Origin: a virus
Direction: 5' to 3' (one strand)
Virus record (IMG/VR): IMGVR_UViG_3300021964_008614
Location: 1 to 56,986 of that record
DNA length: 56,986 nt
How positions within the stretch are numbered: the first letter of the stretch is position 1; the number at the start of each line of letters is the position of its first letter. Positions 14,975 through 43,981 of this stretch are shown in pieces. The notes below the pieces were generated by a model, which worked only from the letters and a program-made list of their open reading frames with translations, was not told the origin of the DNA and did not search any database. Position numbers and translations under genes: made by a program.

Positions 14975-14983
14975 GTATTTATT
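14975..14983 (-). promoter_or_regulatory. T4-type late promoter (AATAAATAC)
   Basis: Minus-strand AATAAATAC overlaps the last codons and stop of the giant gene. The predicted start leaves a 12-base leader containing AGGAT ahead of the ATG at 14958. This gives the fibre block its own late start after the long giant-gene transcript. Confidence 0.6.
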
Positions 14984-17900: not shown

Positions 17901-20900
17901 ATTTGTATTACCGATTACCGAACTTACTTTTGCAACTCTGCCGCCGTCTGCTGTTGAACCATTTAGCACAACTGATGGTGCACCCAAGTATCCTGTTCCA
18001 GGATTATCAATTTTTATTTCAGTAATTTTACCTCCGCCGACGTATGCTGTTGCTTTTGCTCCAGTGCCGCCGCCACCTACAAATTCTACACCTGGTGCGT
18101 TTTCATAGCCACTACCTGCATCAGCAATATTAATTCCTGTAATTTGATAACTTGCATTATCTAACCAATGTTTGAATGGATAAGAATTAATTACATTACT
18201 TGCTACTTTTAATTCATTATTCTGTACTACAACATTTTGCGGTAAAATTCTTCCTGCTTGTTCGTCATATACTGCTGGTAAATCGAAATCTGTAACCATT
18301 GTTTGAGAGTTATCAGTACCCTCGTATGTGCTGAGATATTCTCTAATTTTTGTTTTATAAGGTTTAACCTCATTTGTATATGCTTCATAACTTTCTAAGA
18401 AATCATTATTAAACGTAACATCTTTTCTTAATGCACCAATATTGTGTTTTGCTTTTACAAACGAAGTTTTAAACATCCAATCAACAAACGGTTGTTCTGC
18501 TAATACATAACGCATTTGTGCAAAAAATAGTTCGTTGTAATGAACTGCTAAATTATCAATTAAAATTTTATCTCTTAATGTTTCAAGAATAATTCTTAAT
18601 TCGTCAACTGGTTGTAAATCAAATGCATTGTCGTCATATCCAAAACTATCAAAACCTACTGTCTCGTTTGAATAGTCGTAAATAGATTTTGATAATTGTA
18701 TAGTAGCGTTTTGTCTACCAATAGTTTCATAATTTACTGTGTAATCAACGTTTGCTTGATCGTCAATCTTTCTAAGTAACAACCAGCCTCCTGATCCTAC
18801 AGAATTAATTTTAACAATATCTCCAAATGTATCGGCTAATGATTCTAATTCATATGTTTCGTCAATTATATAATCTGCTTTTGTTAAATTGTTATATCCT
18901 GTAGTATACCAATCTGCATAATTCCAATAAGGTTGTACATCGTATCTTTGACTTGCCACTCTGTTCCACGGATTTATTCCGCCTTGGTATTCATAAAGTG
19001 ACCATTTGTTTGCAAAACTTGCATCAACAGTAGTAAGGACTGTAAAGTTTCTTACTGTTATTGTGTCGCTTTGCTGATAATTTGTACCCGAATTTACTAT
19101 TGATGCACTTGTGACTGCGCCTACATTGTTGATTTCTAATCGAACTTCAGCACCTTCGCCTGTGGCGCTATTAATTTTTATTGTAGGAACAGTTTTGTAT
19201 CCTCTGCCCGGATTAGTAATATCAACTCTTAGAATTTTGCCATCTTGTATTGTAGCAGACAATGTTGCACGTCGAACTCTACCTACAGCAACAAATTCTA
19301 ATTCTGCATTAGAATCAATTTGAACATCATATCTTCTTGATGCTACTGTTGGAATTGGATCATTACTTGTAAGATCACTTAAATCAAAATCATCAATTAT
19401 AATATTTTTGATTAAAACACTGTTGACTCGTTCAACTAATTGTTTTAGGGCTTCTACTCTGTTAACAAACATTGTTTGTCTTGGTGTATTTAAAATACCA
19501 TAGCGTTCTTTTTCGCCTAAGAATCTATCTGGAACTTCTCTACCTTGTTCGTCATATCCAATTAAACTATCATACCATTTGCGTTCAAAGTCGGATTTAG
19601 GAACACTTGTTTCTAACCCATCTGTAATTATTCTGTACTGATTGTGAATATTTTTTTCAATATTACCAATAGTCCAATAACTAAATTTAAGTACTGTAGA
19701 TAGACCTTTAATTGTGCTTTCTAAATTGTGTGCAGTCCATTCATTGTTACTAAGTAAAGAAATATACTTGTAACCTTGTGCAGAAGGATCTCTAATTAAT
19801 TCTTGTACATCAGAACTACTAATTGTTCTGCCTGGTACATCTGGTACTGTTTTTTTATTACGTACCCAGAAGTAATAATATGTAGTAAACTTTTGTGCAG
19901 GTTCATCGTATATGCGTTTAGTACAGTATGCGTTCATACCATACTTGGTTGTACCGCTTATTCCTAAAGCAAGTCCTTCTTCCGAGTCTGCTTGATTGTC
20001 CCAGACTTCAGGAGATATTTTAGATTCAACCCACTCGTAAACTTCTACTTCTGTACCAGGAAATATTGTATTCATTGTATTGCTTACATTAAAAATATTT
20101 CCTGTGTTACTATAAGGATTAATAAATCTTACAGCATCAGTGTCCCACCATAGTTTACCAACCATTTCTTTGGCTGTAAAATGTGTAGTATCCTTGTTTA
20201 CCAGTGTTGTTTCTGCGTTGTTATAAGTTGCAGGATCAAATGAAGTTTTAAAAGATAATTCTACTTCTGCCTGGCCTGCAATTTTTCCTTGTAACGGATC
20301 AATATAATCTAAATATTCTTCAACAGTTTTAGTGTCTTTGTTATAGATAGTAATACCTTTAATTTTTTCTACATCAACTAACGGTCTTGCATTACGTTTT
20401 CTTTCCCACAATTTACTGTTAAGTTTTACTCTGTAATCTAATAAGGCGCCTTGAGCATTATTTGAGTCTCTTTTATACTGAGGTAAACAAACATATATGT
20501 GATTGCCTTTTAGCAACATTGTTTTACCAAAATATAAAGTTTTTCTATCTGCAAATTCTAACTTGTCACTATAAACATATCTATTACCTAATAGTTCAAA
20601 TACAAATACTTCTCCTGTATCAACTAATGTTGATGTAAAGTATGTAGTACCGTTATCGAATACTGTAGTACCTGTATCAAAGTTTGTGTTACTAAACAAG
20701 TCGCCGCCTGCTGAGTGTACAACAATTCTATCATTGTCATATTTGACTACTGTACCGAATTTTTCATTAGGTAGTCCTTTTGGTCCTGTTAAGTGTTGTA
20801 CTTGTGTAAATCTACCATCTACTTGTTCATAAATGAATACTGTACCTTCGTTTGAATATTTTGCAGAATAATTAGGAGCACCTACTGCAATAAACTTACC

Positions 20901-23900
20901 ATCAGTGCTTACTGCTACAGATTCGCCATAATTAATATCTGCTAAGGGCGAATCAATCATTTGATCAAATACGTAATGTCCTAATAATGATTTTCTATAG
21001 ATTACTAATTTTCTTGTTGCTATTGAACTATCAACTGTATCACCATATTTTACAATCGTTGCTAAAACATCGCCTGTAAAACTTACATCAAACTGTGTTC
21101 CAAACTCGTATAAATTTTCTGTTTCAATTGCACTATCTGTTCCTGTAATGAATCCGGTATTATTTGGCAAAAATCCATTAAGGTCAACACCTGTTAAAAT
21201 TTGTTCCCAATCATTTACATTAAAAGTGCCTGCAATCAGATTTGTTTTTGCTTGATATACTTGATTGTTTATTTTAACATATTCACCTTCAAAATATGAT
21301 ACATTTACTTGAAAGTCGCCTCTGTAATTATCATCAGCACCAAGTTTCCAACCTCCACTTGCTGTCCAATTTAAAATATTAATTCTTCCAGGTTGATCAA
21401 AAGTGCCATTTCCTTTACTTAATATATAAGCAGAGTATGTATTGTTTGTATGGCTTACTATTTTTATTTCACTTCCAAGATATCTATCTGCTTCGACATC
21501 TGGTGTTACATATATGTTTTCTAATGTATAAAAATTACTTGCGTTTCTCTGATAAACTGCATAAGCACCTTGACGTTGTAATCCGCTTGAAGTACCATTG
21601 GTATCGGCTGGAATATTATAAACACGTTGCCAGTCATTGTTTGTTTTTGCAGGAGGGTTTGCATCTCTTGCGATTCCATCCAATAGAATTGATTTGTAAA
21701 CCCAATATTCAAAACCTTGTAATGTACGACTTGTACCTCTCGGAAGATTAACTCCCCTGTCAACAACTACAATAAATCCTGCTGTAGTTGATTGTAAGTT
21801 TACAGTATCAGTTGTACCTATAAGACGAAGTACTCCTTGTCCTTGTGATCCCCCAACAATACTTGCACTTGAAATTGCTCCATTGATGTTCCCCAACTTC
21901 CATGTGCCTGTAACATTTTTTACCCACACTCGTAAATCATTAAAAGTTTTTTCAACATATGTTACTTCTGCTGTTGCAAGTGTATCATTGTCTTGAATTG
22001 TATCTCCAACTATCGGAACAAACGGATTACCATAATTAGGATTGTAATCCGGATCTCCTGGTGTCGGTGATCCTCTGTCGTCAAAGTTTGTAAGATTAAT
22101 TTCAATCCAGCCGTCCCATAGATCATTAATTGTGTGTTCTGTATTATTCAAATAGTCGTGTGTGATAACACTTGAAATAACGCTTGGGTCCTGTAGTATT
22201 CCGTCTGTATTTCTATATTCGTTAAAGAAGAAATTAAAAGTTTCTCCTACTGCTAAATTATTATCCAATGACCTTGGTGCTCTAAATACCCATTTATCTG
22301 CAATCTCATCACCGTTGTCGCCGGTATAAGTTAATGTTTCAATATAAGAGGTAATTGTAGGTGATGTTTGCGGATCAGTAATCCTTAAAACATTTTCATA
22401 ATAGTTTGGTGTTCTACTTACTCCTGCTTGAATTACATCTTGTATTACAAGGTATGGCTTAGTTTCAATTGTTGCTGTTGATTGGAATGTGCCACCAACA
22501 TCAATTTTCCACCAACCACCCAGTGCTTCATCGTCTTGTTCTACTGCTCTTTCGTATGCACCTATTGAAATATCTCCAACAAATAAATTTCCTGTTGATT
22601 CAAAGTCACCGTTTGCATCTTTAATATAAATTAATGTTCTATTATCGCCAGTTGTGTATCTAAATGCAACAACACCAACTGCTGTTGAACTTGAAATAAC
22701 ATCGTTAACACTTGGAATAGCCTGTGTATTATCTACTAATAAGATATCATCGATTTTTTCTGTAATAGTGTGATTACCATCAAAGAATTGTTTATTAAGT
22801 GTTGGATCACCATTAAACGGTTGTACGCCGCTTGGATATCTTGTGTTGATATCGTTCCAAAATAATTGCAAAGAATCTCCCGGAGTTGTAGCAACATAGG
22901 CAAGTCTTGGCGCTCTAATTAATACATGATCTGTAGTTTCTTCTTGGAATAAGAAGTTGCCTCTTAAGATGTAATAGATATTATCATATTGTTGAGTTTC
23001 AGCATCATACGTTCCAATTAAATGTCTTATGTGGGAACTAAAACTTTGAAAATCTAAACTTGGATCTGTAGGCTCTATAATGTTTTTAGCCTTCCAATAT
23101 TGATTAGTATACTTTACAATTTCGTCTTTCTGATAAACTTGTCCTGAATTAAATTGTCCTTTATATTTTGTTTTGACATTTGAAGCATATGGTAAGCCTA
23201 CAAAAAGCCATTTTGCATCTGAACTCAATGCTGTTGCTCTTCCAAAACTATTTTCTCCATCTAAGAAGTTTATAGGACAATCAATTGTCTGGGCTAATAC
23301 CAGTCTGATATTTTCTCCTGGTCTAAAGTGTACATCAACTCTACCGTTTACTGTTGATGATGGTGAACCTACTGCTACAGTCGTATTATTTGCATTAGAA
23401 CTAATACTTGTTCCAAATGCTCTTTGGTCTGTACCCAACAATCCTTCTACTGTACTGTTGTAGATTGTTTGTTCTAATCTATGTGCATTAGTATTTTCTA
23501 CAACCGTCCATCTATTATTTTCATCGTAATCAACCCAAACACGTTCCTGAGTTGAATAGTTATCTCTTGTAATTTTTTCGTTAACATCTGTAAGTGTTTG
23601 TACGCGAGAACTTACAAGTTTTAAAATAAATCCGTCTACTTCTGTAGCATCTTCAACTTCGCCAGTAGTTTCTGCATAGATAACATTTAAACTTACTCTT
23701 AATACTTTATAAAATCTATTTTGTTTTTCGCCTACACCTAATATACCAATAATGTCATCTTTATCAACTGTTGGTGCTTTACGTGTTTTAATTTCAATTG
23801 ATTTAGAACTGTCACTATTAACAATATCTGTGACCTTCATTTCTGTTTCAGTTTGGCGTAATACGTCCCAAGTTTGACCTTTTTGTGCAACCCAAATATA

Positions 23901-26900
23901 TTGTCCTATTTCAACTTGATTTAGATCTAAATCAAGAATATCATTGTAGTTTTTTACTTTATAATCAATATCTTCTTCAGCAACATATCCTGCGGTCTTA
24001 ATATAAGTGTCATTCTCATCAATATACTTTGTTGGAAATGGCTTGTGATCGTAGTTCGATGGTTTACTATAGACATCTACCGGAGTATATCTATAAACCA
24101 AATCTGTTGATTGAGGATTGATCGTTTGTACCAACTGGAATGGTTGCGGACTTAATCTAAATTTTGATTCGTCAATTTCGTATTCTACTTCTTCAAACGA
24201 TTCACTTGCTCCATACTGTCCTACTTTAAATGCCCAATCTTCAAAAAATTCTAAACTTGAATTTTCTGTATTTGAAAGTGCATCAAATAGTTTTTCTAAT
24301 GAATTTTTTGTACCTTTGTCTTGAATAAACCCTTGATAAAATTTATATTGTGAAACATCATCATTAATAATATTTTCTAAATATGTACGTTTTTGATATC
24401 CAATTAAATGTTGTGCAAGTCTTTGTTGTTCACTGTCGAAATTATCAGTATCTAAATCATAAAAGTCTGCAAATTGATTTGCTTTATAATCAAAATTAGG
24501 AATTAATCCCGCAGTAGGTTTTTGATTTAAAATATACCACTCATCTTCATTAAAAGTTGTTGTTCCTGTAATTTTTTGTTTTGCACTGTAGTATCTTGTT
24601 TTGTAATAAACTACATCTGCAATATCATAATCTGTATTTTGTGTCCAGTCCTTAACATTTACATCGTCAAGAGTAAATCCTGGAATATTTACGCTCCCGT
24701 TCCAATCAGTACTACGATATCCAAGTACTCTAACCCTTGCTTGTCTATATCCAGGTGCAGGATTATAAATTGTATCATTAAAGACAGTTTTGTTGTCAAG
24801 TAAACAAACATGCTCTTTTTGTACAAGTGGTAATTTAACAAAATAAATTCCGTCTGCTGTATTTTTTAATGTTAATCCAAATTCGTTTTGACTACTTCTA
24901 ATAGTGTTAGCAAAATCTTCTTGAAGTTTTTGTCCATCTGCTTTAAGCAGGGTGTAGTCGTAGAAGTTATCAAATAAATTATCAACAACTACGTAGTCTC
25001 TACTAAATTGTAAATTTATTGCACTTGGAGAAAGTGTTAATAATGCACCTTCATTCCAGTTTTGTGTAGTCCAGAATAAAAATTCTCTTGCACTTAGTTC
25101 CCAATTCTCAATTGTTTCTATAGCCTGGTTAAACTTTTCAAAATTAAATCCTTGCGATTCTAAATATTTTCCATACCCGAGCAAAAAGTCTACCACTTCT
25201 TGATACGTTCTAAACAATGTACCGTAGTTTAATTTAGATGTATCTTCTTCGAATGTTCTACGTAGTATAGCATCTTTGCCGCCTTCAATTGGTAATTCTA
25301 CAAGTTTTACAAAGTTATCTGTAGAAAATGTATCAAATGTACCACTAACTTTTACTCTAAAGAAACTATCACCGAATCTAACAATTTGATCTTTTTGGTA
25401 ACGCTGTCCTGCTTCCCATTCAAGAAATGACTCGCTAACGCCGCCTATATTAATAACAGGATCCTTTGCACGTTCTAAATGTTTATAATAATCAAAGTAA
25501 GGTTTAGATTTATCATAACCTCTTACTAAGAAACCTGCCGCACGTTTTTCAATTATAACTCCGCTATAAGTTACTGTGTCAACGGGTGAACTTGTGTTTA
25601 AAAATAGTTTATAATTTTCTTCAGGAATAAACACGTTGCCTTTATTGTTAGGTGTACGCGAATCTAATATTAGTCTAAATTTATCTTTTGTACTAAATCC
25701 TCCAACCTTAAATCCAAGTTGAATTTTTAAATTTTTTATTTCTTTACTATATTCTTCATTTAATTTAGTTACATCTGCATTGATATAATTAAAGATGTAA
25801 TTTACTATTCCAGCAGTAGTAATTCTTACAGAACTTTCTGATGTATTAGGAAAGATAAGACTATCTAATTTAATTCTTTTGTTATTTCCTGTGTATACTA
25901 TTTGACCTGCATTATTACGTTTAATACGAGAACGATCAAATCCTAATCCAATCACTTTAGCAGGCTGATGAATCATCCAAGCAGTTATATATGCAAAGGC
26001 ATATTCTGATGATCTACGCCATGCTGTCTCTGTTGGTGCTTCGTCACCGAATACAAAATTATTATTTGTTTGCGGAACAATTAATCCTTGAGCGTATCCT
26101 GATTCATAAGGACTTAGTAACACACCCTGTGAATTTACAGGAATATGTTTTAATAAATCTTTTCGTGCGTAATTAGGGCGGTATCTAACTGGATTTCCTG
26201 GTTCACGAACTCTACCTTCTTGCAAGTCTTCCCAAAGAATTAAGTTTTCTTTTGTATAAGGTGCTGGACCATAAACTGTTTCCCACCAGTCTGGTTGGTC
26301 AATGTAGCCTAATATTTTCCAAGGTGTAGTATGAGGACTGTCAGTTCCTAAGTACTGCTTGTAAATTGCTCTCCAAAACCCGGGTAATTTTTCATTATAC
26401 GGATCTACCATAAAACTGTAATTCCAAGTAAATGAATTATCTCTATCATAAAAACTTGTATCTGTATAATCAGGATCACCTGCAATAGATAACCATTCTG
26501 CAAAATCAGTTATGATTATGTCGTCTAAGTCTTTATTTGTAAATCCAGTATCGCGTGACTTATGCCCTACAAAACTATCTACATCAAAAATATCTTTGTC
26601 ATATGTGACTTTTATATTATTGTAAATTCTTTTTTCTAATTCCAGTATTAAATCATCCCTGTAATCGCCATATGCTTTAATAATACTTCCATCATGTCCT
26701 TTAATAACTTGTTGCGGAGTTTGATATGTGTTATCAGTATATTTTACAGGAATATGTAGTGGCCATAAACCTAATTTTGTAGGAGTTGGCGGAATATACG
26801 ATGCATCTGTTGACTCGTATTCGTAAATATCAATTATATCGTTAACTGTTAAAGTAATTTTATCAGTTATTTGAATAAAACCTTCGGTGGTAAAAATATA

Positions 26901-29858
26901 ATCTCTGTTATGTATCAATTGCTGATCATTTAGATAAACATAAACTGCTTTTGCAGAAACTGTTTTTAAATCAAATGGCTCAGTAAGACTATAAAATTTA
27001 TTTCCTATATCAACAACTGTAAATGAACGTTTGTTACTTGCTCCATTACCAATCATATCTGTCCAATAGAACGCTGTTTGCTTAGATTTTTCTGACTTCC
27101 ATTTTTGTAAGGTTTTATCAACAAGATATCTTGCTTCGCCATCAATGCCTAAATCTGTTGCTATCGAAATAAATGCTCTTTTAAACTTAGCATATTCTTT
27201 TCTTGCAAAGCGTAATGCTTTTACTGAATTATATTTCTTGTTGGTAATATGATATGATGCAAGAGAAATAGGACCACTATGCTGTACAAACTTTGTACCA
27301 AATTCTGATAGTTGACCTAAGTTACGTAGATTACTACTACCTGGATATTTTCCTTCAAATCCTGATACATTTTCAATAATAGTAGTTACATGATCAGCAA
27401 CTTCACCGTATGTAAAATCGTTTATATTTTCATTAAGCGGATTGTGTTCTAAGTTTATAGGAAATGCATAATGACCGTTGTTGTTTTTATCTGCCTCACT
27501 TGTACAATGTAAAATTATATTATCATTATTTGCAAGATTACTTGTAAATGTAATGTATGCTATTCCGTTTTCTCTGTTGATTTCCCAATCAGTTCTACGT
27601 TCATTGTTAACAAATACCTTAACATCAAGGTTGTTAAGATCGCCGCTTCTATCATAAACATCTACAGCAAAATTATTACGTTGTCCTGAAACAACATATT
27701 GTCTAATTACTTTTTGTTTACTATCTGCTATTGCTTTTTTCCAACCACTTACACTCTTATAAGAAGTTAAATCAGTATACTTTCTTAAAGTTGCAATATC
27801 GGTTTTTTGTGAAAAATTCACTTGGCCTTGAGTATATGTAAATTCTTCATTTAAAAGATTAAAGTTAAAAACGATATCGCCACTGTTTTCAATGTTTCTA
27901 TATGTTAGCGGAAAGCCTAAGACGCTGTCGTTTGCTCCCGAACCTTGTTTATAAGAAAATAGTTTATTACCAATAAACGAATTACTTGCATATGTTGAAA
28001 AAGAATTATCATCTGCATCATATAAATCAAACAATGGTGCTTGGTTGGCTGTAAGTTTATCTTGTGCTTTTTGCCATTTAGTACCATCATACCAATAAAT
28101 TTTACCTTGATTTGTTGTACCATTTCGAACAAGAACTGTTTCATTTGTTTGAGGCTCAGTATCTGTTTCTTCTTGCAGAGAAATTTGTCTTGTGCCAAGA
28201 TGATTAATAAAGTTGACTTTGTAAATTCTACCATTGACTCTGATATCAGGATCTGCTGTAAACAATACACGTTGTCCGTCAATTAAATCTACACCGTCAA
28301 TATTATAACCTATTGATCCTTCAATAATTGAAAATACATCAATTGTTTTGTCGTCAATTAGATCTACATTAGATTTAAATTTTGATCCATAATTATATAA
28401 TCTTAATCCTGCATCAAATTCTATAATAGGTCTTTTTGCACGTTGGCTCTGATCAAACTCTGTAGGTGTTCCGTTTGCCTTTGCAACTTTTTCAATAACG
28501 TCTCTATGAAACCACCTGTTGTGTCTGGACCATTGATTACCGTCAATCGCCGCACGGTTGATTGTAATATAATCTTGTTCTTTTGGATAATTTAATGCTT
28601 GTCCGAATGGTAGTTTATCAAAGTTTTCAGTATCAAAAGGTATAAACAGATTAGAACTATATGCTCCAGTGATTTCTAAATCTGCTTTACTAATAAGTTT
28701 AATACTGTCACCAACTCCTTCTACATACCAAGTGCCTTCTCCATATTTTGCAGGAGTAACATCTCCAAGAAATTCAACAAGCATACCATTTGATAAGTCG
28801 GTGTCGGTTCTTGTTGTGTAAGTTTTCTTTTGTAGTATTTCTTCTTCTACATTAATTTCAGTATTTTCTAAGATGTTATACATTAATATAGTACCACTTG
28901 TATTAACATCATTTTTACTAATGTAAAATAATCTGTCTGGTGCGTTTAACGGCACTGTAAATTTTAGTGTTCCCTTCTCTACAAATACTGTTGCGGATTC
29001 AACTCCGTCTGTATATAATGTAGATATGTTATCGCCTTCTGTGAATCCTTCGATACCACCTTCCACAGGTTCTACTATGTATTCACCAGTGTCGTATCCA
29101 TCGCTGTCAAAAAGTTCTGACTCAAACTTACCAGGAGCCAACACCCCTTCTACTGTTTCAGTAATAATTGCTTGACCAGGGGTAAAGGCTCTGTTTGTTG
29201 CGAATGCAATAGGATGTCCCGGACAATCAATTTCAAATATGTAAGTTTGACCTTTGTATAGTTTTAAAGTAGGATTTTGTGTTAAACCTGTTGGCGTAAA
29301 CTTGTAGGCTACGTTGTCATCATTTTCCTCCAATGATACTTTAAATGTTGAAACTATCTCTTTAGATTGTCCAAAAATAGATAATATTTGGGGACCAGAA
29401 GGTAACCAATAGTATTCTCTAAAATTAACAAACTTGTCCCAATCAATATGCGGATTCCATGCATAGTATTCTTGTGCATTAATTTTGCTATGATCTTTGT
29501 TTGTATTTCCAAATGAACGTAATTGATTAATATAATCATTATAGTCTTTATAATATGTTACGTTGTCTATATCATCTTTAAGGACCAATGCTGGTTCTAA
29601 TTGATAATCTTCTCTTGTCTTAGTTACATCGCCGACATAATTATCATCGGCGGCATACGCTTTAGCATCTTTTCTGCCGTAATATGCATTAAGTTTTTCA
29701 ACCACACCTGGTTGAATAAGTTGATCAAGCGTACTTGTTAAAAACTTTTTGTTTGCCGGTGTTCTAAAATAACGAGGTAGATGACTTAGGCTGGTTCTTT
29801 TTTCATTTTCACCATCTGGATTAATCGGAAACTCGTTTTGATCATTGTCATAAGCCAT
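14979..29858 (-). CDS. Giant 4,959-residue mosaic virion protein (baseplate/fibre-associated)
   Basis: One uninterrupted frame of 14,880 bases starting one base inside the gp6 stop, with GGAGG upstream. It matches the very large structural protein that follows gp6 in marine T4-like phages. Reading along it: an N-terminal region (EYYAWNPHIDWDKFVNFREYYW) of the giant-family type; aromatic short modules at about 1480, 1738, 2232 and 2843 with the pattern W/Y-x-Y-x-D/E-x-V-x-Y-x-Y-x-A, like small carbohydrate-binding modules; FG-GAP-like blades at about 2145-3140 (for example YGESVAVSTDGKFIAVGAPN); glycine-rich repeats (NPGRGYKTVP, NPGTGYLGAP) at about 3520-3970; and tandem fibre-like beta repeats from about 4330 to the end (vxVNxxxV..Y...LTFTTAP). 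No protease or hydrolase motif was found. The likely role is a long side fibre or baseplate-attached adhesin. Domain boundaries are approximate. Confidence 0.75.
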   Translation of the reverse strand: MAYDNDQNEFPINPDGENEKRTSLSHLPRYFRTPANKKFLTSTLDQLIQPGVVEKLNAYYGRKDAKAYAADDNYVGDVTKTREDYQLEPALVLKDDIDNVTYYKDYNDYINQLRSFGNTNKDHSKINAQEYYAWNPHIDWDKFVNFREYYWLPSGPQILSIFGQSKEIVSTFKVSLEENDDNVAYKFTPTGLTQNPTLKLYKGQTYIFEIDCPGHPIAFATNRAFTPGQAIITETVEGVLAPGKFESELFDSDGYDTGEYIVEPVEGGIEGFTEGDNISTLYTDGVESATVFVEKGTLKFTVPLNAPDRLFYISKNDVNTSGTILMYNILENTEINVEEEILQKKTYTTRTDTDLSNGMLVEFLGDVTPAKYGEGTWYVEGVGDSIKLISKADLEITGAYSSNLFIPFDTENFDKLPFGQALNYPKEQDYITINRAAIDGNQWSRHNRWFHRDVIEKVAKANGTPTEFDQSQRAKRPIIEFDAGLRLYNYGSKFKSNVDLIDDKTIDVFSIIEGSIGYNIDGVDLIDGQRVLFTADPDIRVNGRIYKVNFINHLGTRQISLQEETDTEPQTNETVLVRNGTTNQGKIYWYDGTKWQKAQDKLTANQAPLFDLYDADDNSFSTYASNSFIGNKLFSYKQGSGANDSVLGFPLTYRNIENSGDIVFNFNLLNEEFTYTQGQVNFSQKTDIATLRKYTDLTSYKSVSGWKKAIADSKQKVIRQYVVSGQRNNFAVDVYDRSGDLNNLDVKVFVNNERRTDWEINRENGIAYITFTSNLANNDNIILHCTSEADKNNNGHYAFPINLEHNPLNENINDFTYGEVADHVTTIIENVSGFEGKYPGSSNLRNLGQLSEFGTKFVQHSGPISLASYHITNKKYNSVKALRFARKEYAKFKRAFISIATDLGIDGEARYLVDKTLQKWKSEKSKQTAFYWTDMIGNGASNKRSFTVVDIGNKFYSLTEPFDLKTVSAKAVYVYLNDQQLIHNRDYIFTTEGFIQITDKITLTVNDIIDIYEYESTDASYIPPTPTKLGLWPLHIPVKYTDNTYQTPQQVIKGHDGSIIKAYGDYRDDLILELEKRIYNNIKVTYDKDIFDVDSFVGHKSRDTGFTNKDLDDIIITDFAEWLSIAGDPDYTDTSFYDRDNSFTWNYSFMVDPYNEKLPGFWRAIYKQYLGTDSPHTTPWKILGYIDQPDWWETVYGPAPYTKENLILWEDLQEGRVREPGNPVRYRPNYARKDLLKHIPVNSQGVLLSPYESGYAQGLIVPQTNNNFVFGDEAPTETAWRRSSEYAFAYITAWMIHQPAKVIGLGFDRSRIKRNNAGQIVYTGNNKRIKLDSLIFPNTSESSVRITTAGIVNYIFNYINADVTKLNEEYSKEIKNLKIQLGFKVGGFSTKDKFRLILDSRTPNNKGNVFIPEENYKLFLNTSSPVDTVTYSGVIIEKRAAGFLVRGYDKSKPYFDYYKHLERAKDPVINIGGVSESFLEWEAGQRYQKDQIVRFGDSFFRVKVSGTFDTFSTDNFVKLVELPIEGGKDAILRRTFEEDTSKLNYGTLFRTYQEVVDFLLGYGKYLESQGFNFEKFNQAIETIENWELSAREFLFWTTQNWNEGALLTLSPSAINLQFSRDYVVVDNLFDNFYDYTLLKADGQKLQEDFANTIRSSQNEFGLTLKNTADGIYFVKLPLVQKEHVCLLDNKTVFNDTIYNPAPGYRQARVRVLGYRSTDWNGSVNIPGFTLDDVNVKDWTQNTDYDIADVVYYKTRYYSAKQKITGTTTFNEDEWYILNQKPTAGLIPNFDYKANQFADFYDLDTDNFDSEQQRLAQHLIGYQKRTYLENIINDDVSQYKFYQGFIQDKGTKNSLEKLFDALSNTENSSLEFFEDWAFKVGQYGASESFEEVEYEIDESKFRLSPQPFQLVQTINPQSTDLVYRYTPVDVYSKPSNYDHKPFPTKYIDENDTYIKTAGYVAEEDIDYKVKNYNDILDLDLNQVEIGQYIWVAQKGQTWDVLRQTETEMKVTDIVNSDSSKSIEIKTRKAPTVDKDDIIGILGVGEKQNRFYKVLRVSLNVIYAETTGEVEDATEVDGFILKLVSSRVQTLTDVNEKITRDNYSTQERVWVDYDENNRWTVVENTNAHRLEQTIYNSTVEGLLGTDQRAFGTSISSNANNTTVAVGSPSSTVNGRVDVHFRPGENIRLVLAQTIDCPINFLDGENSFGRATALSSDAKWLFVGLPYASNVKTKYKGQFNSGQVYQKDEIVKYTNQYWKAKNIIEPTDPSLDFQSFSSHIRHLIGTYDAETQQYDNIYYILRGNFLFQEETTDHVLIRAPRLAYVATTPGDSLQLFWNDINTRYPSGVQPFNGDPTLNKQFFDGNHTITEKIDDILLVDNTQAIPSVNDVISSSTAVGVVAFRYTTGDNRTLIYIKDANGDFESTGNLFVGDISIGAYERAVEQDDEALGGWWKIDVGGTFQSTATIETKPYLVIQDVIQAGVSRTPNYYENVLRITDPQTSPTITSYIETLTYTGDNGDEIADKWVFRAPRSLDNNLAVGETFNFFFNEYRNTDGILQDPSVISSVITHDYLNNTEHTINDLWDGWIEINLTNFDDRGSPTPGDPDYNPNYGNPFVPIVGDTIQDNDTLATAEVTYVEKTFNDLRVWVKNVTGTWKLGNINGAISSASIVGGSQGQGVLRLIGTTDTVNLQSTTAGFIVVVDRGVNLPRGTSRTLQGFEYWVYKSILLDGIARDANPPAKTNNDWQRVYNIPADTNGTSSGLQRQGAYAVYQRNASNFYTLENIYVTPDVEADRYLGSEIKIVSHTNNTYSAYILSKGNGTFDQPGRINILNWTASGGWKLGADDNYRGDFQVNVSYFEGEYVKINNQVYQAKTNLIAGTFNVNDWEQILTGVDLNGFLPNNTGFITGTDSAIETENLYEFGTQFDVSFTGDVLATIVKYGDTVDSSIATRKLVIYRKSLLGHYVFDQMIDSPLADINYGESVAVSTDGKFIAVGAPNYSAKYSNEGTVFIYEQVDGRFTQVQHLTGPKGLPNEKFGTVVKYDNDRIVVHSAGGDLFSNTNFDTGTTVFDNGTTYFTSTLVDTGEVFVFELLGNRYVYSDKLEFADRKTLYFGKTMLLKGNHIYVCLPQYKRDSNNAQGALLDYRVKLNSKLWERKRNARPLVDVEKIKGITIYNKDTKTVEEYLDYIDPLQGKIAGQAEVELSFKTSFDPATYNNAETTLVNKDTTHFTAKEMVGKLWWDTDAVRFINPYSNTGNIFNVSNTMNTIFPGTEVEVYEWVESKISPEVWDNQADSEEGLALGISGTTKYGMNAYCTKRIYDEPAQKFTTYYYFWVRNKKTVPDVPGRTISSSDVQELIRDPSAQGYKYISLLSNNEWTAHNLESTIKGLSTVLKFSYWTIGNIEKNIHNQYRIITDGLETSVPKSDFERKWYDSLIGYDEQGREVPDRFLGEKERYGILNTPRQTMFVNRVEALKQLVERVNSVLIKNIIIDDFDLSDLTSNDPIPTVASRRYDVQIDSNAELEFVAVGRVRRATLSATIQDGKILRVDITNPGRGYKTVPTIKINSATGEGAEVRLEINNVGAVTSASIVNSGTNYQQSDTITVRNFTVLTTVDASFANKWSLYEYQGGINPWNRVASQRYDVQPYWNYADWYTTGYNNLTKADYIIDETYELESLADTFGDIVKINSVGSGGWLLLRKIDDQANVDYTVNYETIGRQNATIQLSKSIYDYSNETVGFDSFGYDDNAFDLQPVDELRIILETLRDKILIDNLAVHYNELFFAQMRYVLAEQPFVDWMFKTSFVKAKHNIGALRKDVTFNNDFLESYEAYTNEVKPYKTKIREYLSTYEGTDNSQTMVTDFDLPAVYDEQAGRILPQNVVVQNNELKVASNVINSYPFKHWLDNASYQITGINIADAGSGYENAPGVEFVGGGGTGAKATAYVGGGKITEIKIDNPGTGYLGAPSVVLNGSTADGGRVAKVSSVIGNTNLRTTHMNVKFDRVTGTFFITTLDEIENFVGSGSKFTYKLKWPADVRTDKIKITVGDLEILPSRYTIENIEDSVGRTHKRKIAQITFDTPPANNLNIKIEYKKDISLLTAADRINLFYNPQTGMIANDLGQLLDGIDYGGVQVKSFNFGGGSGWDADEWFTSAYDTYDNTYEDEVFRLGDDSTKVYDFAQPLETGITYNVYKNGTRIDDPNYPSNPTNPDALIPSIIGAGQTGFILTDDGTEVESTVIKFDEEVVSTQSGDVIVIRKNTSDGSFIPDPRAYDTIVTGGDLAYSTATGLNPEDINIDGDGFVTPTTSKGPEELVPGQVLDTLDIKVYDRVGEGGSIIESVSYVANGTATTYKFTGLPQTNDAIFVKVNNVIVSDYTVNYKNKELTFTTAPANNSRINIVTMSGNGEGILDMDTFDGDGSTLQFVTQVDWKENLSSIVTVNGEKVNYILETTDSSYDTANKTVISFGAPPTDNAVINYAIYASEAQTFSEIKTDNLVADGSSASYELSITPFSSLPASHNLIVKVGDNILNAGYNEKFTIDNRIEYQLRNWQQPGGTLGADDIIVLLNGRQLTYTSDFIFRPANSSVEIFENVAQQGDKLEIFVTTDGEYTVSGNTLTLDTVPTENTLISVTHFSNHDIQQIDRKNYDIVTRTTVQFESAGDIEYNHLLAGLIRLQRPTIDAEYVWVILNGKLQTPSVDYKVTNDKLFVRMAQPLDANDVIELIQFAEDGPTVSKFGYRQFKDMLNRTVYKRLGDSNSYRLAKDLKIFDKEIIVDDASKMFVPEKESNTPGVLFINGERIEYFVKDGNSLQQLRRGTMGTGVKEIHNVGDQLFDQGFQQTVPYQDQTLVNTYNGDGCTKTFNLDWEPDSVNEFEVFVGGRRLRKTAILTFDPTVDQDSPEGDVTAPAEFSISSPNILTITTAPADGVRITIVRKIGKIWNEPGKTLGKTENAIAQFLRAEEVDLPK

Positions 29859-39225: not shown

Positions 39226-40059
39226 GTGAAAAGAGTAAATTATTTAAACAACAAGGACATATTGTCCGAGATACACAAGTCAAAGAGCAGTTTTTGCAGT
39301 TTTGTAGATTCAGACTATCATCAATTTGATATTATTTTACCAAGCATAGACAAAATTAACGTAAGAACAATAGCAGAAGCAAAAAGAAACAAAGCAAAAA
39401 GATTAGGAGATGCAGATTATGCCGCAAGAAAATTAGCAGGCGAAAAAGTTAAACAAGCAGAGTGTGCTGTTGACTACAGAAAGATCACAAAAGAGGAACT
39501 TATTTTCCGTGTAATGACATTTGATCATATTCCTGAAGAAAAGGGTCGTAAGAAAAATCCTAAAACTATAGCAGATACAAAAATAAAATTAAACTTTCCT
39601 CCATTCCAGCATTTTAAATTTAACGAAAACGACGAACTTGTATGTGTAGGCAAAAGTCATTGGGAAGGCGGAATGGAAAACGGTTCTTTTAATCTAAGCG
39701 GTGGTAAAGCAACTGAAAAACTTGCTCGCATGTGGATGAAACTTTGTGATCGTTATGCAACAAGAGGAAATGTACGTGGATACACCTACAATGACGAGAT
39801 GCGAGGTCAAGCAATTCTTCAACTTACACAGATTGGACTACAATTTGATGAAAGCAAATCACAAAACCCATTTGCATACTACACTGCGGCAGTTACAAAT
39901 TCATTTGTAAGAGTTATTAACATTGAAAAGCGTAATCAAAATATTAGAGACGATATTCTTGAAATGAACGACATGACTCCAAGTTACACACGCCAAAGTC
40001 AAGGCGAATGGGAAAGACAAGTAGAAGAACAACGCAAAAAAATGGCAAGTGGCAAATAA
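39226..40059 (+). CDS. gp55: Late sigma factor gp55
   Basis: 277 residues from a GTG with GGAGA upstream. gp55 replaces the host sigma factor on RNA polymerase and, with the sliding clamp gp45, drives late transcription from TATAAATA boxes. The C-terminal half shows the sigma region-2-like core: WMKLCDRYATRGNVRGYTYNDEMRGQAILQL (pieces: YTYNDEMRGQAI, FDESKSQNPFAYYTAAVTNSFVRV) and INIEKRNQNIRDDILE. The N-terminal 100 residues, rich in Lys and Arg, exceed T4 gp55 (185 residues in all). It is the first rightward gene after a divergent early/late promoter pair and is followed by a fresh sigma70 promoter for gp47/46. Confidence 0.88.
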   Translation: MKRVNYLNNKDILSEIHKSKSSFCSFVDSDYHQFDIILPSIDKINVRTIAEAKRNKAKRLGDADYAARKLAGEKVKQAECAVDYRKITKEELIFRVMTFDHIPEEKGRKKNPKTIADTKIKLNFPPFQHFKFNENDELVCVGKSHWEGGMENGSFNLSGGKATEKLARMWMKLCDRYATRGNVRGYTYNDEMRGQAILQLTQIGLQFDESKSQNPFAYYTAAVTNSFVRVINIEKRNQNIRDDILEMNDMTPSYTRQSQGEWERQVEEQRKKMASGK

Positions 40060-40063
40060 GTTC

Positions 40064-40092
40064 TTGACTTTATTTGACTTTTGCTATACAAT
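40064..40092 (+). promoter_or_regulatory. Sigma70-type promoter of gp47/46 (TTGACT-17-TACAAT)
   Basis: -35 TTGACT at 40064-40069, a 17-base spacer and -10 TACAAT at 40087-40092 lie in the 60-base gap after gp55. The predicted start near 40099 leaves a short leader with GAGGT before the TTG at 40120. Confidence 0.72.
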
Positions 40093-40119
40093 AATAAGAC
40101 AATAAACTGAGGTAATATT

Positions 40120-41124
40120 TTGTTTAAAAAATGTGCAGTATTTACAGACATACATTTTGGTCTGAAAGGAAACTCTAAAGTCCATAATGATGACTGTGAA
40201 GACTTTGTGGATTGGTATATTAAAACAGCCAAAGAAAACGGATGCGAAACAGGAATCTTCATGGGTGACTGGCATCACAATCGTAACAGTTTAAATATTG
40301 TTACAATGGACTACTCTATTCGCAGTCTTGAAAAACTTGGAAAGGCATTTGAACAGTTTTTTTACTTTCCAGGTAATCATGATTTGTATTACAAAGATAA
40401 AAGAGACGTCCAAAGTGTAGAATTTGCAAAACATATCAACGGTGTTACAGTTGTTGATGAGATTACTACAATAGGCGATAGTACAATGGTACCGTGGCTT
40501 GTAGGTGAAGAGTGGAAAAAGATTCCTAAGATCAAAAGCAAATACATGTTTGGACATTTTGAACTTCCAAACTTCTATATGAATGCAATGGTACAGATGC
40601 CTGATACTGGCGAATTACAATCTAAACATTTTGTACATCAAGATTATGTGTTTAGTGGCCATTTTCACAAAAGACAAACACAAGGCAACGTAACATACAT
40701 AGGAAATGCATTTCCACACAACTATGCAGATGCTTGGGACGATAAACGCGGAATGATGATTCTCGAACACGGTGGAGAACCTCAGTATATAGATTGGGAC
40801 AGTTGTCCAAAATATAGAACTGTGAAATTAAGTCAACTAATTGATGAAAAAGATAAGTTGATGAAAGATAAAATGTATCTACGTGTAACACTTGATATTA
40901 ATATTAGTTACGAAGAAGCAAGTTTTATCAAGGAAGAATTTCAAAAGCAATTTAGTTGTCGTGAAATTACTTTGATTCCAAGTTTACAAGATGATCAAAT
41001 TAATACTGATATTGATATCACAAAGTTTGAAAGTGTTGATCAAATTGTAGCAGAAGAGATTAATGCAATCGAAAGTGAAAACTACAACAAACAAACACTA
41101 CTAAACATTTATAACGAGTTATAA
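40120..41124 (+). CDS. gp47: Recombination nuclease subunit gp47 (Mre11/SbcD-like)
   Basis: 334 residues, starting at TTG with GAGGT six to seven bases upstream. The calcineurin-like phosphoesterase metal site is complete: D10-x-H12 (FTDIHFG), D50 in GDWHHNR, the GNHD loop in FPGNHDLYY, then GHFEL and GHFHKRQ. gp47 with gp46 resects DNA ends for T4-type recombination-dependent replication and degrades host DNA. The stop is four bases before the gp46 ATG, consistent with stoichiometric co-production. Early promoter at 40064. Confidence 0.95.
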   Translation: MFKKCAVFTDIHFGLKGNSKVHNDDCEDFVDWYIKTAKENGCETGIFMGDWHHNRNSLNIVTMDYSIRSLEKLGKAFEQFFYFPGNHDLYYKDKRDVQSVEFAKHINGVTVVDEITTIGDSTMVPWLVGEEWKKIPKIKSKYMFGHFELPNFYMNAMVQMPDTGELQSKHFVHQDYVFSGHFHKRQTQGNVTYIGNAFPHNYADAWDDKRGMMILEHGGEPQYIDWDSCPKYRTVKLSQLIDEKDKLMKDKMYLRVTLDINISYEEASFIKEEFQKQFSCREITLIPSLQDDQINTDIDITKFESVDQIVAEEINAIESENYNKQTLLNIYNEL

Positions 41125-41127
41125 AAT

Positions 41128-42897
41128 ATGCTGATTAAAGACCTAACTGTAAAAAACTTTATGAGTGTGGGAAATCAAACCCAGGCTGTAGACTTTAGCA
41201 ATAGACAATTAACGCTTGTACTTGGTGAAAACCTTGATCAAGGAGGCGATGATAGTGGCTCCCGAAACGGAACTGGTAAGACCACTATCATTAACGCCCT
41301 TTCATATGCACTATACGGCCAAGCACTAACAAATATTCGCAGAAATAATCTAATTAATAAAACCAACGGCAAAGGTATGTTGGTTACACTTAACTTCGAA
41401 AAAAACGGAACAAAATATCGAGTTGAGCGAGGACGTAGTCCTAACGTTTTAAAGTTTTTTATTAACGAAGAAGAAAAAGAAATCACAGACGAATCACAAG
41501 GTGACTCAAGAGAAACTCAAAAAGAAATTGATAGTCTGTTACAGATGAGTCACGAGATGTTTAAGCACTTGGTTGCATTAAACACATACACAGAGCCCTT
41601 CTTAAGTTTAAAACCCAACGATCAACGTGCTATTATTGAGCAACTATTAGGTATTACCATACTATCCGAAAAGGCTGAACAACTTAAAATAAAACAAAAA
41701 GAAGTGCGTGACGGAATTACCGAAGAAACTGCAAGAATAAATGGGATACAAACTGCAAACGAAAAAGTAAAAGAGACAATTGATAGTTTAAAGGTAAAGT
41801 CAAGTGCGTGGAGACAACAGAATGCTAAAGATTGTGAACGCTTACAAAATGGTATTGACGAATTAGAACACTTAGATATCGATGAAGAAATAAGAAATCA
41901 CGAGTTACTATCTGCTTGGGAAGAAAACGACAAGCACAAGCGTAATTTAGAAAAAGAACGTGCTACACTTGAAAGTGCGTTAAGTCAGACAGACAGACAG
42001 ATTACTAAAATTGGAAAAGAATTAAATGATCTTAATGATGCAAAGTGTCATGCTTGTGGACAAGAGTTACACGAAGAGAAAAAACAAGAAATAAACAATA
42101 AACTTCAAGAAGAGTATGGCGAAACAATGACATACTTAATGGAAATTAATACAAAATTTGAAAAGGTTGCAAATAAATTAAGTGAGTTAGGAGATTTAGA
42201 TTCTAAGCCAAGTACATTTTATGAAACTGCTAAAGAAGCATACGATCATCGAAGCAATGTTGAAAATTTAAAACAAGCACTTAAGGCTAAAGAAACAGAA
42301 AACGATCCATACGTTGATCAAATCGAAGAACTTGAACACACTGCTATACAAGAAGTAAACTGGGATACCGTGAATGACCTTACGCTGATGCAAGAACATC
42401 AAGGTTTCTTGTATAAGTTACTTACAAATAAAGATTCCTTTATACGTAAAAAAATTATTGAACAAAACCTTGCATATCTAAACAATAGATTAACATTCTA
42501 CTTAGACAAAATTGGTTTGCCACACACTGTAGTATTTCAAAATGATTTATCTGTGATGATCACCCAGTTAGGACAGGACCTCGACTTTGATAATTTAAGT
42601 AGGGGTGAGCGTAACAGACTAATACTTGGTTTATCATTTGCGTTTAGAGATGTTTGGGAAAGTTTGTATCAAAATATCAACTTACTATTTGTTGACGAAT
42701 TAATTGACAGTGGAATGGACACCGCGGGTGTTGAGCATAGTTTGGCTATCCTCAAGAAAATGGGTAGAGAACGTAAAAAGAACATTTATTTGATTTCACA
42801 CAAAGACGAACTGCAAGGTCGTGTACAAAACGTACTTAAGGTTGTAAAAGAAAACGGCTTTACCAGTTATGCAAACGATATTGATATTGTACAATGA
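41128..42897 (+). CDS. gp46: Recombination nuclease subunit gp46 (Rad50/SbcC-like ATPase)
   Basis: 589 residues. Walker A is GSRNGTGKTT at about 44-53. A coiled-coil with a zinc-hook, CHACGQEL, has C307 and C310. The ABC signature is LSRGERNRLILG at about 490, and Walker B is LLFVDELIDSGMD at about 520. The loop GENLDQGGDDSG before Walker A is typical. With gp47 it forms the end-processing nuclease of recombination-dependent replication. It overlaps the following small gene by four bases (ATGA). Confidence 0.95.
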   Translation: MLIKDLTVKNFMSVGNQTQAVDFSNRQLTLVLGENLDQGGDDSGSRNGTGKTTIINALSYALYGQALTNIRRNNLINKTNGKGMLVTLNFEKNGTKYRVERGRSPNVLKFFINEEEKEITDESQGDSRETQKEIDSLLQMSHEMFKHLVALNTYTEPFLSLKPNDQRAIIEQLLGITILSEKAEQLKIKQKEVRDGITEETARINGIQTANEKVKETIDSLKVKSSAWRQQNAKDCERLQNGIDELEHLDIDEEIRNHELLSAWEENDKHKRNLEKERATLESALSQTDRQITKIGKELNDLNDAKCHACGQELHEEKKQEINNKLQEEYGETMTYLMEINTKFEKVANKLSELGDLDSKPSTFYETAKEAYDHRSNVENLKQALKAKETENDPYVDQIEELEHTAIQEVNWDTVNDLTLMQEHQGFLYKLLTNKDSFIRKKIIEQNLAYLNNRLTFYLDKIGLPHTVVFQNDLSVMITQLGQDLDFDNLSRGERNRLILGLSFAFRDVWESLYQNINLLFVDELIDSGMDTAGVEHSLAILKKMGRERKKNIYLISHKDELQGRVQNVLKVVKENGFTSYANDIDIVQ

Positions 42898-43118: not shown

Positions 43119-43544
43119 ATGCAATGGACTTATCAAGGACAAGAAGTAAAAGAAATCCCAGAAGGCATAGAAGGCTTTGTCTATTTGATTACCAATACAA
43201 CTAATAATCGCAAGTATGTAGGCAAAAAACTCGCAAAATTTAAAAAAACACGCCCACCTTTAAAAGGCAAGAAAAACAAAAGACGTAGCAAAGTAGAGTC
43301 AGACTGGAGAGACTATTGGGGATCTTCAGATCACTTGCTTGAGGACGTACAAAATTTAGGCCCAGAAAATTTTACAAGAGAAATTTTACACTATTGTGAA
43401 AGCAGAGGCGTATTAAGTTATCTCGAAGCCAAAGAACAATTCGATAGACGTGTATTAGAAACTGACGAATATTACAACGGCATTATTAATGTACGTGTAG
43501 GCAGTTCGAAAGTTTTGAAAGAAGCGTTAAAAAATATAAAATAG
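43119..43544 (+). CDS. GIY-YIG endonuclease (SegE-like)
   Basis: 141 residues. The GIY-YIG core is G19-F-V-Y22 with YLITN, then K32-Y-V-G35 of the KYVGKKL motif, an Arg in VESDWRDYWGSS at about 63 and a catalytic-type Glu in SYLEAKEQF at about 103. Length and motif order match the Seg/SegE-type homing endonucleases of T4-like phages. It is preceded by no strong ribosome binding site and is followed immediately by the 440-base structured, gene-free region. Seg proteins cut at sites in related phages to spread linked DNA, so the neighbouring RNA region may be travelling with it. A non-mobile role is also possible. Confidence 0.75.
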   Translation: MQWTYQGQEVKEIPEGIEGFVYLITNTTNNRKYVGKKLAKFKKTRPPLKGKKNKRRSKVESDWRDYWGSSDHLLEDVQNLGPENFTREILHYCESRGVLSYLEAKEQFDRRVLETDEYYNGIINVRVGSSKVLKEALKNIK

Positions 43545-43564
43545 GCAAAAATATAGCAACATTG

Positions 43565-43975
43565 TTTGGTCGAGGAGGCTCGACTCATCTTGAGGATATG
43601 TGAAATACCATATTCAGATACTGGTGCGTTGCAAGGATAATGCTAACTTAAGGCATAAAAGATGTATGCTCTGTGAAAAAGATACAACATACGCGGCAAG
43701 TGTTTTTGCACTGTTAAGGAACAACTGCCGTCCGTGGATACTGCGAATGCTGAAGTAAGGGGTTGACGATCTACCGCCTCTGTACATACTATATGTAATC
43801 TTCTTTAACAGTGTGGTGATGCTAACTCACATGATGTGAAACCACTCAGTTCGTCCGGCAACGGGCGAATTGTGGCTCAACTATCTACATGATGCTAAAT
43901 TGCTTCGCAATTATTGTTTAAGAAATAAGTGTTTGAGCGATAGCGAAAACAAGATGTGCTTTAGCACATCTACTA
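43565..43975 (+). ncRNA. Candidate structured noncoding RNA of about 410 nt, unidentified
   Basis: No credible frame occupies 43545-43981, yet G+C is about 42% (172 of 410 bases counted), higher than surroundings, and hairpins follow one another: GTCGAG/CTCGAC (43569-43584); GCATA/TATGC (43653-43669); CGGCA/TGCCG enclosing AGTG/CACT (43694-43730); TACAT/ATGTA (43783-43797); TCACA/TGTGA (43827-43839) inside AGTG/CACT; TTCGTCCG/CGGGCGAA with a GCAA loop (43850-43869); AATTGC/GCAATT (43898-43912); AGATGTGC/GCACATCT (43952-43971). The GCAA (GNRA) tetraloop and a U-G pair in that stem would become A-C on the other strand, favouring a plus-strand transcript. TGCTAACT recurs at 43641 and 43820. It is not a tRNA, RNase P RNA, 4.5S RNA or tmRNA by eye. 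A GOLLD-type or other phage RNA is possible. It may be transcribed as the 3' part of the gp47/46 operon. Confidence 0.6.
43952..43971. terminator. Strong hairpin between convergent transcripts, possible bidirectional terminator
   Basis: Perfect eight-base stem AGATGTGC/GCACATCT with loop TTTA, ten bases before the end of the leftward gene at 43982. Neither strand has a long T run after it, so factor-independent termination is uncertain. It may instead be the 3' capping stem of the candidate RNA. Confidence 0.4.
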
Positions 43976-43981
43976 AGAATG

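Follow-up and report, generated by a model that had tools for sequence, protein, structure and literature searches.

The window analysed here is a 56,986-base fragment of a marine T4-like phage, and only one internal stretch in it longer than 150 nt (43545-43981; 437 nt) is free of open reading frames (ORFs) of at least 60 amino acids. A preliminary description, made from the sequence alone, had singled out this gap as the only gene-free stretch of over 300 bases, a claim that holds even at the 150-base cutoff. The gap encodes a plus-strand, pseudoknotted RNA that measures 430-550 nt across relatives. The whole element, a large structured noncoding RNA at 43549-43971 on the plus strand, is defined by homologues, covariation, and the proportions of G-U and C-A pairs. 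Directly 5' of it, on the same strand and in the same position in relatives, is the gene of a SegE-type GIY-YIG endonuclease (43119-43544; Pfam PF19835, E = 1.7e-35), which is preceded by a constant upstream context of plus-strand genes for the gp55 late sigma factor, gp47 (SbcD-like), and gp46 (SbcC-like) at 39226-42897. The 3' neighbours of the gap in the window are two small convergent minus-strand ORFs. The genes flanking the RNA are intact and separate, and no long reading frame spans the gap.

SegE-type GIY-YIG proteins carry the label 'NAD synthetase' in PHROGs (phrog_447) and in many GenBank/RefSeq records; Pfam assigns phrog_447-type proteins, the window gene at 43119-43544 being one, to the SegE GIY-YIG nucleases, and the label appears to be a propagated misannotation. 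Elsewhere in the window, a single minus-strand ORF of 4,959 amino acids (14979-29858) takes up a quarter of the length; its match to the FG-GAP repeat in Pfam is marginal, and its product could be a giant virion or adhesin-like protein.

Structure and covariation of the RNA

In the window, the RNA is about 430 nt long and contains about 14 helices, two of which are pseudoknots. Its 5' end is inferred (about 43549-43556, just past the SegE stop codon at 43544), and its 3' end (about 43971) is set at the last hairpin. The G+C content at 43565-43975 is 171/411 (41.6%) vs. 35.3% window-wide. The plus-strand fold has an energy of -122.6 kcal/mol (z = -2.87; none of 100 shuffles equalled it), and the minus-strand fold is weaker (z = -1.78). 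Among the paired cells of the 71-pair structure described below, G-U makes up 11.1% and C-A 0.2%, which identifies plus as the RNA strand.

All helices are given on the plus strand. The 5' part begins with P1 (43556-43560 with 43628-43632), which covaries; an early candidate for P1, UAGAUUG with CAAUCUA, was dropped as it is mismatched in several sequences. The P2 hairpin (43568-43574 with 43579-43585) also covaries, P3 (43586-43589 with 43623-43626) has both-sided changes in all four pairs, one of them at E = 0.025 against the tree null, and P4 (43594-43598 with 43611-43615) has double changes in four of five pairs. P5 is a local hairpin (AUGC 43640-43643, GCAU 43653-43656) whose variants in the alignment, judged by eye and uncounted, are AUGC/GCAU, AUAC/GUAU, and AGAC/GUCU. 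P6 (43665-43668 with 43688-43691; double changes in three of four pairs) closes a conserved internal motif, and the long-range P7, a 9-bp helix (43710-43718 with 43804-43812), has 126 double-change cells in 65 sequences.

The pseudoknot PK1 (43734-43739 with 43769-43774) reaches into the loop of P9; it is 100% paired, has nine double changes in each of three pairs, and includes the pair with the strongest covariation (E = 0 under the tree null). P8 (43752-43755 with 43800-43803) and P9 (43758-43762 with 43777-43781) are supported by the covariation tests (tree null and 71-pair structure), and the P10 hairpin (43783-43787 with 43793-43797) by four of its five pairs. The second pseudoknot, PK2 (43763-43766 with 43877-43880), remains tentative in the window clade, where it is 91% paired with little variation; its counterpart in relatives is GGUC with GACU. 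P11 is a nine-pair hairpin closed by a GCAA tetraloop (43849-43857 with 43862-43870), flanked by twin repeats of ACAUGAUG at 43829-43836 and 43887-43894. P13 (43931-43950) has the form GUUU-GA-GC-GNNA-GC-GA-AAAC, with two GA/GA mismatches and a GNNA loop; the pattern is unique within the window, and a compensatory change from GC/GC to GU/AC occurs in both clades. The 3' terminal hairpin, GATGUGC/GCACAUC (43952-43971), lacks a plus-strand U-run, is replaced in relatives by a variable hairpin in the same place, and could double as the end of a convergent minus-strand gene.

The preliminary description was thus right about the strand (by fold z-scores and by G-U vs. C-A pairs) and about a local G+C of about 42%, which it had counted as 172/410. 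Its span of 43565-43975 was too narrow, its eight hairpins in series were incomplete, several stems being long-range, and its eight-pair GCAA stem has nine pairs. The repeat TGCTAACT, reported to occur twice, does so (43641 and 43820), with a third copy at 12753; one copy lies in the P5 hairpin region (43640-43649) and the other (43820-43836) precedes twin repeat 1. The latter is divergent in other members of the window clade, and the repeat is therefore not generally conserved.

Covariation was assessed in two ways. A phylogeny-preserving tree null, written by ourselves after the idea of R-scape and applied to 65 sequences of the window clade, gave four pairs with E ≤ 0.05, all of them 100% Watson-Crick or G-U and the best one in PK1. 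The other check used 23 diverse, distinct members of the window clade, aligned independently with MAFFT, and a 71-pair structure with two pseudoknots, in which 98.5% of cells are paired. Both-sided changes are seen in 33 pairs and 205 cells, compared with 63.8±6.8 for shuffled and at most 23 for slid structures, and the covariation score is 0.415 vs. 0.189 (shuffled) and at most 0.07 (slid). The covariation check proposed beforehand was therefore passed strongly, and the absence of covarying pairs, which would have refuted the RNA, did not occur.

Clades C and D have a second architecture of about 480-550 nt with its own 5' domain. It covaries as well, being 98.0% paired with 199 double-change cells vs. 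56±6.6, and in consensus numbering its two pseudoknots join 9-14 with 151-156 and 176-181 with 301-306. When a covariance model was built from the other clades only, it matched the window at 43748-43892 (23.1 bits, E = 0.0035) and ten other clade-A loci at the expected places, with E < 0.005 in 6 of the 11 matches; these E-values are rough. Since the cross-clade model finds the window, the 3' half is homologous between the two architectures.

In certain phages, a variable stem tip of this RNA carries a palindromic hairpin, TATACGGTNTAGCGTATATTT...AATATACGGTNTAGCGTATA (L029:4930-4978; L155:6443-6462; L197:2511-2557; L198:2501-2550; also L199). The same palindrome is found in unrelated phages, namely a Dinoroseobacter schitovirus and, inside the tRNA cluster, Caulobacter phages, and it may be a mobile hairpin of the MITE/REP type.

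Homologues, descent, and transcription

Homologues of the RNA are present in well over 150 IMG/VR contigs. For a collection unbiased with respect to the RNA, 80 viral contigs were fetched with gp46 as the query. With the window RNA as the only query sequence, nhmmer located the element in about 30 of these, in the same place, and a profile search found it in 57, which are all 57 of those that reach the locus; the remaining 23 stop no more than 313 nt past segE, before or inside the element, and the 5' motif of the RNA is present in 10 of 11 such short tails inspected. As far as can be tested, the RNA is universal in the clade (gp46 identity of at least 68%). Two gene-independent DNA patterns gave at least 120 and 95 contigs, a collection biased toward the pattern itself; in the first-pattern contigs inspected that have enough flank, the element lies on the same strand, downstream of gp46 and/or segE. 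Homologues at the same locus in marine T4-like phages, another proposed check, were thus found in many contigs.

The gene order 5' of the RNA in relatives is gp55-gp47-gp46-SegE. Extra ORFs lie between segE and the RNA in some of them, and the 3' context varies, with convergent genes in the window and, in other relatives, orf200 reading in the same direction at a distance of 28-50 nt. In the divergent phages L144 and L148, several copies of a short direct GACACCAAGTC-like repeat lie between segE and the start of the RNA. Contigs of 100-236 kb that were tested carry one copy each; the exception to single copy is a pair of near-identical phage contigs binned in one metagenome-assembled genome (MAG). 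These T4-like contigs of 335 and 153 kb (PBPT01000016 and PBPT01000082) were the only genome contigs matched, and no host information came from them; their presence in a Neomarinimicrobiota MAG is likely bin contamination. Distances between RNAs follow those between gp46 sequences (Mantel r = 0.69), which argues for vertical inheritance rather than mobility, and the RNA is a vertically inherited core element of one marine T4-like phage clade.

At the sensitivity of blastn, none of 50,697 named phage records contains the window RNA; blastn matches that L029 and L053 gave in phages of Roseobacter and Caulobacter were rejected, consisting only of the palindromic stem-tip insert. The RNA was not found in the first 50 kb of pelagiphage HTVC008M, nor at the SegE locus of phage Melnitz, whose SegE is 77% identical. 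The GIY-YIG neighbour noted in the preliminary description is therefore constant in the clade and not obligatory in general.

Expression of the RNA is inferred. A position weight matrix (PWM) scan of the plus strand gave a weak, AT-rich candidate sigma70-type promoter, TTGAAA-16-TAAAAT, within the 3' end of segE (43515-43542; start at about 43549). A perfect sigma70 promoter, TTGACA-17-TATACT, lies between segE and the RNA, 45-58 nt upstream, in four loci (L059, L110, L121, and L188); the four may be related, and the promoter signal is clear there only. Across all loci, PWM scores upstream of the RNA are slightly above controls. No enrichment of T4-type late promoters was seen upstream of the RNA, and no intrinsic terminator of the RNA was found. 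The segE stop codon is inside the 5' motif of the RNA in 55 of 85 C/D loci, so co-transcription with segE is also likely. The 3' neighbours are not constant, and this speaks against the RNA being a riboswitch that serves the gene after it.

Proposed function and rival explanations

The sequence ACAUGA[A/U]G is present in the window RNA at both twin-repeat positions, and the two copies change in concert. In the C/D clade, the repeats are concordant in 83 of 85 sequences, and of six changes at the variable position on the C/D tree, four are shared, with the two copies changing along one and the same branch (hypergeometric P = 7e-6). The variants CAUG to CGUG and CAUG to CAUA likewise occur in both repeats together. 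The overall tally (n = 240) is 118 AA, 117 UU, and 4 mixed A/U, which overstates independence because the second copy in clade A was predetermined by one of the search patterns. The repeats keep identity and not complementarity, so they do not pair with each other, and a search by eye found no third strand pairing with them. The simplest reading, an inference without an identified partner, is that they would be two copies of one binding site.

We favour, as a tentative choice with a probability of about 0.42, a scaffold or decoy RNA that acts in trans and carries twin sites; this function is inferred, as there are neither transcript data nor a known partner. On this view, the RNA would appear in the early or middle stage of infection, through a host-type promoter of its own in the 3' end of segE, through processing of the gp55-47-46-segE transcript, or both. 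Working in trans, this compact scaffold or decoy would offer a single partner (a protein or an RNA, of the phage or of the host) two equivalent ACAUGA[A/U]G sites and would thereby redirect host machinery. Action in trans is preferred to action in cis because the 3' context varies and extra ORFs may separate segE from the RNA, a promoter of its own is proposed in a subset because of the perfect promoter in four loci, and one partner for both sites is proposed because the repeats change in concert. Against this reading count the missing terminator, the promoter that is clear in four loci only, and the abutment of the RNA on SegE, so close that it leaves a 3'-UTR role unexcluded. Whatever the mechanism, the RNA is likely important in infection.

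The 3'-UTR alternative remains possible: the structure would block 3' exonucleases and read-through and so stabilise the gp55-47-46-segE mRNA for replication and recombination. In its favour, the RNA comes immediately behind the stop codon of SegE in the window, overlaps it in those 55 C/D loci, and is constantly placed on the same strand, 3' of the operon, without its own terminator. However, a stabiliser needs neither long invariant stretches such as GUCGACGUAGGUUGGGAAAGGUCAGAGCCC, which were partly fixed by the search pattern, nor concerted twin repeats, and the extra ORFs after segE and the perfect promoter just upstream in four loci also speak against it. A ribozyme or an RNA-only particle, that is, a catalytic core or an oligomeric cage like GOLLD or ROOL, is unlikely, and both catalysis and assembly would be inferences. 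The RNA does have features typical of a precise tertiary fold, namely extensively conserved loops, pseudoknots that are nested, a GNRA tetraloop, and peripheral stems that vary, and the contrast between its variable 5' domain and its better conserved 3' domain is reminiscent of GOLLD (PMC12286853), but the models of known ribozymes, GOLLD, and ROOL are unmatched and there is no sign of split-gene splicing.

Less probable still is a selfish element of the SegE nuclease, in which the RNA, by analogy with HEARO and RNA-guided nucleases, would serve as homing target, guide, or marker. SegE is indeed the constant upstream neighbour, but the RNA shares the descent of gp46, is universal within the clade, and persists where other ORFs have come between it and segE, and the Melnitz SegE has no such RNA nearby. 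The preliminary description had itself allowed for a decayed gene; this and DNA-level hairpins (an origin or terminator) are all but excluded. A gene-poor stretch with hairpins, the last of which could terminate a minus-strand gene, would fit them, but they are contradicted by the 98.5% pairing with 205 compensatory cells, by the strand asymmetry of G-U and C-A pairs, and by the lack of a long frame. Beyond the scaffold or decoy reading lies a bolder one, which remains possible: the RNA would be a large phage RNA machine of a new class, pseudoknotted and serving as scaffold or ribozyme. It would be essential to the phages of a widespread marine clade and would control infection by binding one host or phage partner at two co-evolving sites.

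Comparison with known RNAs

No Rfam 15 family matched the window in cmscan at the gathering threshold, and relaxed searches (E ≤ 5-10; window, L029, and L053) gave chance matches only. The proposed Rfam check is thus negative, including for GOLLD and ROOL, even at E ≤ 10; of the two options raised beforehand, membership in GOLLD failed and a new class stands. The statement that the RNA is not a tRNA, tmRNA, RNase P RNA, or 4.5S RNA is supported by Rfam and, for tRNA and tmRNA, by ARAGORN. Pelagiphages and phage Melnitz, a marine T4-like phage, carry a two-piece (permuted) tmRNA (PMC9004378); for the window RNA, one- and two-piece tmRNAs were rejected, since neither ARAGORN nor the tmRNA models of Rfam gave a match and no tag frame or tRNA-like domain was recognised. 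Group I and II introns are excluded, as no Rfam intron model matches and the flanking genes are uninterrupted; the helix order also does not fit the group I topology. HEARO, the IsrB-associated RNA, shares with the window RNA a structured RNA beside an endonuclease gene, but there is no cmscan match, the neighbour is GIY-YIG SegE and not HNH/IsrB, and the window RNA is vertically inherited; HEARO identity is excluded by model, gene context, and topology. The stable RNAs C and D of T4 are phage-encoded and of unknown function; they are much shorter and lie in a tRNA cluster.

We found no earlier report of this RNA in the open-access literature searched (subscription papers and preprints were not covered), and we have little doubt that it represents a new, real, and conserved structured RNA family. 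Its absence from Rfam means that annotation relying on Rfam overlooks it in every relative. Large RNAs conserved in the manner of ribozymes are rarely seen, and the few phage classes known, such as GOLLD and ROOL, have unresolved functions; here, such an RNA is a universal core element of a clade at a fixed locus, and its alignment, pseudoknots, and twin co-evolving sites offer concrete, testable handles.

The window RNA is large, covarying, pseudoknotted, and noncoding, and it thereby has the structural traits of the large ornate noncoding RNA-only complexes; homo-oligomeric assembly, a further trait of that kind, would be a prediction for the window RNA. Like ROOL, it is a large ornate phage RNA of unknown function, although the Rfam model of ROOL is unmatched and the window RNA is found in marine T4-like phages and not near tRNAs. 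GOLLD is also large, pseudoknotted, phage-encoded, and present in aquatic metagenomes. However, its covariance model is unmatched, it often exceeds 800 nt vs. 430-550 nt here, and the window RNA is fixed at the gp46/SegE locus without a tRNA island. GOLLD is often, though not always, near phage tRNA genes; ARAGORN found no tRNA genes in the window or in 14 loci scanned. GOLLD has a conserved 3' part and a variable 5' part (PMC12286853), and the window RNA, with its variable 5' domain and more conserved 3' domain, is similar in this respect. The window RNA is related to neither GOLLD nor ROOL; it nevertheless resembles these large ornate phage RNAs (PMC12286853) and may work like them.
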